Notes under the pieces: generated by a model
Seen by the model: the letters and a program-made list of their open reading frames with translations, nothing else
Databases searched by the model: none
What the model was told of the DNA's origin: nothing
Program-made: the position numbers and the translations under genes
Assembly (NCBI RefSeq): GCF_026616195.1
Contig: NZ_JANHDH010000001.1
Span: 1,550,001 to 1,614,000, forward strand
Length of the DNA: 64,000 nt
Origin: Haloarchaeobius amylolyticus
GTDB taxonomy: Archaea > Halobacteriota > Halobacteria > Halobacteriales > Natrialbaceae
Direction of reading: 5' to 3'
Shown here: piece by piece, positions 6,908-13,090 of the stretch
Layout: the number at the start of each line of letters is the position of its first letter
Position numbering within the stretch: the first letter of the stretch is position 1

Positions 6908-7884
6908 CGGGCATCACCCGTGGCGGCGTCGGCCGATTCGCGGTCGCCCCTGCCGCGTTCGCGCCCCTCTCCGGTCATCTCGACGAAGATCTCCTCCAGC
7001 GAGGTCCGCGAGATGTCGAGGTTCACGATGTCGTGGCCCATCGCCTCCAGTTCGTTCAGCAGGGCGGGTGTCACGGCGCCGCCGTTGGTGGCCCGGACGA
7101 GCAGCCGGTCGCCGTCCAGTTCCACGGACTCGACGCGGTCGAGCGTCCCGTTGAGTTCTGGAGCCACCGCGGGCGGGTCACGCAGCGTGACGGTGATGGT
7201 GTCGGTCCCCCGGCGCATGAGTTCGTCCGGCGTCGACACCTCGACCTTCGAGCCCTCGTTGACGATGGCGACCCGGTCACAGAGGCGTTCGGCCTCCTCG
7301 ATGTAGTGGGTCGTCAGCAGGACGGTCGTCCCGTTGTCGTTCAGCTCGGAGACGACCTCCCAGAGGTCGTGGCGCAACTGCACGTCGACCCCGGCCGTCG
7401 GCTCGTCGAGGATGAGCAGGTCCGGGTCGGTGACGAGCGCCCGGGCGAGCAACAGCCGGCGCTTCATCCCGCCCGAGAGCCAGTCGAAGCGCTCCTTGCG
7501 CTTGTCGTAGATGCCGACCCGCTTCAGGGCCTCGTGGGCCCGGTCGAGCGCCTCGTCCTCGGGGATGCCGTGGTAGCCCGCCTTGTGGACCAGCACCTCC
7601 TCGATGGGGAAGAAGCGGTCGACGTTGAACTCCTGTGGAGCCAGCCCGATGGCGTCGCGGGCCTGCCGGTAGTCCTCGACCACGTCGTAGCCGAACACCC
7701 GCGCCTCGCCCGAGGTCTTCCGGGCGAGGCCGACGAGGATGTTGATGAACGTGGTCTTGCCGGCCCCGTTCGGCCCGAGCAGCCCGAAGAACTCACCCTC
7801 CTCGACCTGCAGGGAGAGGCCGTCGAGGGCGCGCAACGACCCGTACTCCTTCACGAGGTCGGTGACCTCGATGGCGTGTGTCAT
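6904..7884 (-). CDS. ABC transporter ATP-binding protein
   Basis: ATPase subunit for the adjoining permease. The 326 residues contain Walker A GPNGAGKTT, signature LSGGMKRR, Walker B LLILDEPTAGVD and the switch His in LLTTHYIEEAE. A C-terminal domain of the daunorubicin-exporter (DrrA) type follows, then an acidic tail. First gene of a two-gene operon. Confidence 0.95.
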   Translation of the reverse strand: MTHAIEVTDLVKEYGSLRALDGLSLQVEEGEFFGLLGPNGAGKTTFINILVGLARKTSGEARVFGYDVVEDYRQARDAIGLAPQEFNVDRFFPIEEVLVHKAGYHGIPEDEALDRAHEALKRVGIYDKRKERFDWLSGGMKRRLLLARALVTDPDLLILDEPTAGVDVQLRHDLWEVVSELNDNGTTVLLTTHYIEEAERLCDRVAIVNEGSKVEVSTPDELMRRGTDTITVTLRDPPAVAPELNGTLDRVESVELDGDRLLVRATNGGAVTPALLNELEAMGHDIVNLDISRTSLEEIFVEMTGEGRERGRGDRESADAATGDAR

Positions 7885-12776: not shown

Positions 12777-12850
12777 GCCTCGCCGTATACGGGGCCGAGT
12801 GATAAGTGACCGGACTGCGTGCCGAGAGCAGGTGCTCACGAAGCGTGAAA

Positions 12851-13040
12851 TGCGGGAGAAGTGGGCCGGCGCGAATACTGAATCGTCGCAAGACGGTCAC
12901 CTCGCTCCGCTCGGTGCTGCGACTTGCTGGATTCAAATTCCCGCGTCCTCCATGTGCCGCACTCGGACGTCGTTCGCACACGCTACGCGGTGCTCACCGG
13001 GTTGAGTGCGGGAGAAGTGGGCCGGCGCGAATTTGAATCG
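12851..13040. repeat. Direct repeat of the tRNA-Pro 3' end (att-like)
   Basis: A 26-base identical block (TGCGGGAGAAGTGGGCCGGC plus GCGAAT) occurs at 12851-12876 and 13007-13032, and both continue with TGAATCG after a small difference. The right copy is the 3' end of tRNA-Pro plus its 11-base downstream flank; the left copy is a fragment. The 156-base spacing contains a T-arm-like TTCAAAT string but no gene. Integrases commonly duplicate a tRNA 3' end, so this may be an att scar. Confidence 0.6.
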
Positions 13041-13090
13041 CGGTTACGGCCACCCGAAGGCCGAAGGATACCAAGCTACCCCACCGGCCC
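13018..13090 (-). tRNA. tRNA-Pro (anticodon CGG)
   Basis: Read on the minus strand, it has a 7-bp acceptor stem (GGGCCGG with CCGGCCC), D arm with AGCUUGGUA, anticodon stem CGGCC/GGCCG around the loop UUCGGGU (anticodon CGG, codon CCG), T stem CGCGA/UCGCG around UUCAAAU, and discriminator A. CCA is not encoded. Seventy-three bases, no intron. All stems pair perfectly in my reading. Confidence 0.95.

Follow-up and report, generated by a model that had tools for sequence, protein, structure and literature searches.

The duplicated 3' end of the tRNA-Pro(CGG) gene in the window, which is the whole 64-kb stretch of DNA analysed here, may well be one member of a family of small non-coding cassettes located at the 3' ends of haloarchaeal tRNA genes, a reading that is held tentatively. 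On the tRNA strand, the tRNA gene is followed by a first hairpin (HP1), an antisense T-arm, a GC-rich mini-hairpin core, and a sense copy of tRNA positions 52-73. The existence of a class-wide repeat family is almost certain, and its units are probably mobile. The sense copy of a unit is specific for the respective tRNA, the joints are sharp at the tRNA 3' terminus, and units with this architecture are spread across the class. Gain, loss, and reordering of units occur between congeners, and near-identical cores stand behind different tRNAs. Recombination at tRNA ends is favoured over decay because of the tRNA-specific copy of the T-loop block, the precise joints, the gain and loss of units, and the shared cores.

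The only tRNA gene that ARAGORN reports in the 64-kb window is that for tRNA-Pro(CGG) (Table 1). A block of 26 bases comprising its 3' end and flank, which a preliminary description had seen repeated 156 bases away, was recovered as an exact direct repeat (TGCGGGAGAAGTGGGCCGGCGCGAAT, offset 156 nt). If one inserted base is bridged (AATACTGAATCG versus AATTTGAATCG), the alignment reaches a length of about 34 bases, which accounts for the small difference reported for the second copy. In tRNA numbering, the block common to both copies consists of positions 52-73 and 11 nt of 3' flank, and CTTCTCCCGCA comes after the distal copy when the tRNA strand is read, just as it comes after tRNA-Pro(CGG) itself. 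The last 22 bases of the tRNA (52-73, without CCA) are copied with one extra base, which is inserted in the T-loop (GATTCAGTATTCG versus GATTCAAATTCG). The suggested resemblance to an attachment-site pair is borne out by a direct copy of the tRNA 3' end that reaches the gene end. The repeat is beyond chance, since the 22-mer matches once in the 64 kb with up to three mismatches, at the gene itself, and never in 100 shuffles; the distal copy is skipped by this search because it carries an indel. Between the copies, no recognizable gene was found, in agreement with the earlier statement that the spacer is gene-free; the ORFs listed across it are mechanical, and integrase-bearing DNA is absent from this 156-nt period. 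On the tRNA-sense strand, the antisense T-arm is thus the complement of a T-arm. As a single case, the window unit folds with z values of -2.10 versus -1.29 for the two strands.

Table 1. Features of the tRNA-Pro(CGG) gene and of the unit behind it, in window coordinates.
Feature	Position	Strand	Basis or remark
tRNA-Pro(CGG) gene body, positions 1-73	13018..13090	-	ARAGORN gives 13017-13090
Duplicated block, tRNA 52-73 (T-loop, T-stem 3' strand, acceptor 3' strand, discriminator)	13018..13039	-	sequence
26-nt exact direct repeat, tRNA-side copy	13007..13032	.	repeat search
26-nt exact direct repeat, distal copy	12851..12876	.	repeat search
HP1, hairpin beginning just past the tRNA 3' end	12957..13011	-	sequence, fold
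HP1 stem arms	12957-12964 and 13004-13011	-	sequence, fold
HP1 mini-hairpin motif GCGTAGC	12982-12988	minus strand	sequence, fold
Antisense T-arm, 5' arm of HP2	12929..12948	+	reads GGATTCAAATTCCCGCGTCC on +
HP2 core (AAGTCGCAGCACCGAGCGGAGCGAGGTGACCGTCTT...)	12885..12928	-	also present in units at other tRNAs, from different genera and families
HP2 core mini-hairpin GCGGAGC	12904-12910		sequence, fold
Distal sense copy of tRNA-Pro 52-73, 3' arm of HP2	12862..12884	-	sequence

A search with positions 12840-13030 against 125 genomes of the family returned dispersed matches to the middle part of the query. ARAGORN found a tRNA gene in 28 of the 30 matching loci that were fetched, the kinds being Pro, Ala, Arg, Gly, Ser, Tyr, Leu, His, and Glu. 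The common order from the tRNA 3' end is HP1, antisense T-arm (GGATTTGAA...), a core such as AAGTCGCAGCACCGAGCGAAGCGAGGTGACCGTCTT, and the sense copy, which in each unit is the block from T-loop to discriminator of its own tRNA. Where the T-loop reads TTCAAA, the antisense orientation is unambiguous (TTTGAA).

In the genome of the window (G000), a strict core pattern with up to three mismatches recovered the window copy only, and the other units were found only when the tRNAs were compared one by one with their own flanks. Core-based counts therefore understate the family. A copy of the tRNA's own 3'-terminal 23-mer (at least 16/23, at most 300 nt downstream) follows 24 of the 48 tRNA genes of G000, as compared to 1/48 upstream. 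At a threshold of at least 18/23, the own tRNA is matched in 16/48 cases versus 53/2246 cross comparisons with the ends of other tRNAs. The unbiased figures come from three complete tRNA sets, in which indels were permitted and all other tRNAs were masked: copies of the T-arm class (52-73) stand behind 21/47 tRNA genes in G000, 24/48 in the congener G005, and 9/46 in G139 from another family, with upstream controls of 0/47, 0/48, and 0/46 (0/141 in total). These figures supersede an unmasked count in which a tRNA cluster inflated both sides (19/58 downstream, 7/58 upstream). Acceptor-only copies (61-73) were found at 4, 5, and 5 tRNA genes in G000, G005, and G139, respectively. Copies of this class, with an antisense acceptor and a hairpin ahead of them, were observed at L094, L179, L240 (tRNA-Arg GCG), L205 (Gly-TCC), L199 (Arg-CCG), and L208 (Arg-CCT). 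Outside the usual tRNA set, a dozen or more tRNA genes lie within about 2 kb at L226 (G139:C1:1153325-1155000) and at L214, a cluster that resembles the tRNA array of a mobile element.

Across the class, the strict three-T-loop pattern TTCRAATC-(60-90)-TTYGAA-(20-50)-TTCRAATC is present in 340/391 genomes and 80/86 genera, and the reversed-pattern control gave 0 in every row. In a draw from the phylum, the pattern occurred in 71/81 genomes inside the class versus 16/311 outside, a split counted by hand from the result rows; here the reversed control also matched in three of the genomes outside the class. One genome outside the class, G676, has three forward matches and one reverse match, which is above the chance level of its neighbours. 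Viral contigs gave 0 matches to the core-A pattern. A looser HP2 pattern matched eight viral contigs, all of which looked bacterial and unrelated except L187 (L187:13744-13909; IMGVR_UViG_3300000875_000004). This metagenomic viral contig carries tRNA-Glu(TTC) and a typical unit beside tailed-virus genes, with no integrase in the part examined, and represents either a provirus border or a virus-borne tRNA.

The boundaries of the units were evaluated for 116 units drawn from 170 tRNA genes, a biased sample since L022-L051 and L102-L131 were picked by similarity or pattern. The sense copies start at position 52/53 in 108/116 units and end at 73 in 87/116, so that most units carry, like attL/attR pairs, a direct copy up to the exact end of the tRNA gene. 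This counts for recombined cassettes because a T-loop-type tRNA integration expects such an identity block. As no copy needs the CCA, the source is the gene and not the mature tRNA. An indel between the arms is found in 56/116 units, usually one base near 57-64, and the extra base in the window is of the same kind. Arrays of two to five copies occur at 30 of the 90 copy-bearing tRNAs, and the remaining units are single. Units mostly have 50-200 nt between copies; spacings are below 250 nt in 125/132 cases, a set that includes the bacterial-like L192, tandem tRNA-Asp genes (L079, L156), and a hit to the next tRNA (L065). A gene-bearing unit was not noticed in any of the 179 tRNA loci scanned. 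The tRNA-Met genes of G005 (L160) and G326 (L118) are followed by four to five copies of their own 3' end, and these arrays include one interval of 392 nt, which leaves room for a larger unit.

Orthologous tRNAs of G000 and G005 have conserved upstream flanks and differ in their downstream units. Units are found in G005 only, for example, behind the Ile, Phe, Arg-TCG, and His tRNAs, and in G000 only behind Pro-CGG, Gly-TCC, and Ser-TGA. Behind Val(TAC), one extra G005 unit is located exactly between the tRNA end and the shared (older) unit, and the Lys(TTT) array is permuted, reading A-B-A in G000 and B-A in G005. Cores are also shared by non-orthologous tRNAs. A core of about 50 nt is common to Glu(TTC) of G000 and Leu(TAA) of G005, and the G000 Gly-TCC and Leu-TAA cores agree at 36/38 positions. 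The core of the window unit is found again at Leu(TAA) in the other family (G139, L231), with 33/36 nt and one change from an A-T to a G-C pair; both agreements were counted by hand. In the arrays, the first copy is closer to the tRNA in five cases, the last copy in seven, and both are equal in three, and this order does not support the idea that the newest unit stands beside the tRNA.

The units are strand-asymmetric with respect to the motif GCGNAGC. DNA mini-hairpins of this form are described as extraordinarily stable in the sections consulted of a study that gives a Tm of 78 °C for GCGAAGC (PMC4686876). On the tRNA-sense strand of 54 units, the motif occurs 57 times versus 6.1 in shuffles (maximum 14), a ninefold excess, and on the opposite strand 5 times versus 2.9, the shuffles being Markov resamplings and not exact dinucleotide shuffles. 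The N base is A in 27 cases, T in 12, C in 9, and G in 9. The density of the motif is 9.34/kb in units versus 1.08/kb behind copy-less tRNAs, and acceptor-only units are without this sense bias, their GCGNAGC-type motif tending towards the opposite strand (3 sense, 5 antisense, n=14 units). Calculated with nearest-neighbour DNA parameters, the units fold better than shuffled sequences on both strands (mean z -2.07 vs -1.91). A strand preference was not found in these energies, the sense strand being more stable in 31/54 units, and better folding of the tRNA strand was rejected by this measure.

The antisense arm is a general anti-T-arm. When own tRNA and the best of all other tRNAs were compared, its 16-mer fitted the own tRNA best in 2/24 and 1/25 units, with 3 and 4 ties, and strict copying of the arm from its host tRNA was therefore rejected. 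Where sense copy and tRNA disagree, the antisense arm agrees 23 times with the tRNA, 12 times with the copy, and 16 times with neither. The arm thus tracks the tRNA more than the copy and the hairpin is not kept perfectly paired, so that co-variation of the arms as a perfect hairpin is ruled out as well.

The tRNA-Pro(CGG) gene is present in each of five congeners, and no unit was seen behind it in any of them; for G002-G004, this result comes from inspection of the flanks and a repeat search with seeds, an approach that could miss a decayed copy. The preliminary description had called the locus a likely integration hotspot and had proposed to search relatives for an element between the two copies, and congener G001 agrees with both, since integrase-bearing DNA is found at this place. 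On its contig C51, a second copy AGTGGGCCGGCGCGA and the flank known from the other congeners (7556-7581) adjoin a 361-aa tyrosine integrase (Phage_integrase 1.7e-09). On contig C69, tRNA-Pro(CGG) is followed by pleolipovirus-like genes, among them a 399-aa NTPase with 49.5% identity to HHPV3 and a 516-aa spike-like protein with ~24-26% identity to several pleolipovirus spikes. C51 and C69 probably carry opposite ends of a single pleolipovirus-like provirus integrated in tRNA-Pro(CGG) (G001:C51:6415-7581, L017; C69:4652-14643, L016). These ends share a core of 15 bp only, and the antisense T-arm is absent. A second, shorter integrase-like ORF, a DNA methylase, and a Mrr-like nuclease are also encoded there. 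In G005, the closest congener, an AT-rich insertion of 3.5 kb lies between tRNA-Pro(CGG) and the next shared gene (L015:6381-9909). It contains a DUF4238 gene and two further ORFs, and no direct repeat pair was found there.

That such copies are ordinary attachment-site scars, left behind when a provirus or plasmid was lost through deletion of its interior, is suggested by the live integration at tRNA-Pro(CGG) in G001 and by two reports, each as far as the parts consulted go: partial tRNAs beside full tRNAs of Hfx. gibbonsii LR2-5 were read as remnants (PMC7921747), and tRNA copies of 22 and 43 nt flank islands of Haloquadratum (PMC3119063). Nevertheless, this origin is very unlikely, as random deletions would not yield the same order of HP1, antisense T-arm, and core in many species, and the provirus ends in G001 have their 15-bp core without an antisense T-arm. 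The one-off scar of a lost element considered in the preliminary description thus did not hold, because the spacer is an ordered unit common to many tRNAs, genera, and families. Its other option, a small non-autonomous element, came nearest and missed the order and wide distribution of the unit. Of the unchanged conservation of copies and spacer in distant haloarchaea, which it had named as an objection to an integration trace, one half was found: copy, spacer, and copy recur at tRNA-Pro(CGG) in other genera (L023, L024, L025, L038, L045, L048) in changed form, and the congeners without a unit at this tRNA speak against unchanged conservation. It is also unlikely that the units are passive repeats. 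In that case, they would have formed as quasi-palindromes when the tRNA end was duplicated locally and the template was switched there, and homologous recombination between the direct copies would multiply, remove, and rearrange them without a dedicated enzyme. The tandem arrays and permutations, which unequal exchange would produce, the imperfect palindromes, and the failure to find an enzyme would fit this origin. It leaves unexplained why nearly the same cores are found at different tRNAs, both in one species and in several, why the copies have a fixed start at 52/53, and why the units are restricted to one class.

A function in the pre-tRNA transcript appears similarly improbable. HP1 and HP2 would then form a structured 3' trailer acting in termination or 3'-end processing, or the antisense T-arm would compete with tRNA folding, and gene conversion would keep the copy tRNA-like. 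The units are indeed always located on the 3' side and on the transcribed strand, they often open with T-runs right behind the tRNA, and the antisense arm tracks the tRNA and not the sense copy. However, about half of the tRNA genes are without a unit and orthologous tRNAs differ within the genus. Moreover, GNRA tetraloops, which RNA hairpins should show, are hardly enriched (4 vs 1.8), whereas the DNA-type GNA triloop is, and a search of five loci with Rfam covariance models gave four tRNA matches and one sub-threshold microRNA match and no other family.

If the units are recombined cassettes, they would be inserted, shuffled, and deleted by a site-specific recombination whose attachment site is of the T-loop type (block 52-73), with the tRNA gene as fixed landing site and a putative tyrosine recombinase acting in trans as the likely enzyme. 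The mini-hairpin bias and the pair of antisense and sense T-arms suggest that one DNA strand may fold to present the site. The partner would then probably be a single DNA strand whose antisense and sense T-arms fold into the duplex of the tRNA attachment site, comparable to an integron attC or to the folded single-strand attP of a phage. This folded-strand mechanism is possible, if somewhat doubtful. No recombinase was pinned to the units: the integron integrase model TIGR02249 was over cut-off in 0/59 class genomes and in 0/14 controls, with weak general tyrosine-recombinase matches in 46/59 class genomes. The missing enzyme, the loose specificity of the antisense arm, the equal folding energies, the order test, the lack of the core in viral contigs, and the gene-free units count against recombined cassettes. 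A tRNA-anchored integron-like system intrinsic to haloarchaea, in which tRNA genes would serve as attI-like landing sites and non-coding cassettes would be captured as folded strands, accumulate, permute, and be exchanged between tRNAs and species by a putative recombinase, is rather unlikely; if true, much of the class would have a second, gene-free kind of cassette array.

A description of the unit was not found in the open-access literature, which was the scope of the search, with subscription journals outside it. The unit family apparently lacks a description or has been recorded under the remnants called 'partial tRNA'. A survey of tRNA fragments covers, in the parts consulted, Thermococcaceae and integrated elements (PMC9897764), and archaeal integrons have been reported in metagenome-assembled genomes in a study whose main text is without the words Halo and tRNA (PMC9668308). 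In the three complete sets, between about a fifth and a half of the tRNA genes are followed by this structured element, which spans one archaeal class, and copies of tRNA ends in this class are no reliable evidence of a lost provirus. The units raise the questions which recombinase acts in trans at tRNA ends, whether folded single-strand recombination extends beyond integrons and filamentous phages, and whether units alter tRNA 3' processing or guard the tRNA from viral integration.

Among known systems, the tRNA attachment sites of archaeal tyrosine integrases (SSV, pNOB8, pT26-2, SNJ2) likewise have a direct copy of the tRNA 3' end. According to the sections consulted of a review, these tRNA 3'-end sites include the 14-nt site of SNJ2 (PMC8371274); the block 52-73 of the units fits the T-loop type, and the acceptor-only copies fit the short SNJ2 type. 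In contrast to these elements, the units are without integrase or element, have only about 100 nt of structured DNA between the copies, form arrays, and accompany as many as half of the tRNA genes. As far as the consulted parts of two studies go (PMC2727003; PMC9668308), integron cassettes with attC sites likewise form arrays behind a fixed landing site, and each cassette ends in a strand-asymmetric imperfect hairpin with frequent single bulged bases, in which AAC (5' arm) and GTT (3' arm) mark where the outer stem has its inner edge. The units have an attC-like topology with the edges GAACC (antisense) and GGTTC (sense) and, in 56/116 cases, an indel between the arms; such edges would also follow from any T-loop, and the folding energies show no strand preference. 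Unlike integrons, the units land at a tRNA, their outer arms copy the landing site, and no genes stand between their closely spaced copies as cassettes would between attC sites; with IntI over cut-off in none of the 59 genomes, an identity with integrons was rejected. In filamentous phages such as CTXphi, the folded single-strand attP hairpin rebuilds a double-stranded attachment site. In the units, a hairpin of one strand would do likewise, with a tRNA instead of dif and without phage genes. MITEs and REP-BIME elements are short, non-coding, palindromic, dispersed repeats with shared cores. In contrast to these, the units have neither a fixed terminal inverted repeat nor a target duplication; they are located strictly at tRNA 3' ends, and their own ends are host-specific copies of the tRNA 3' end.
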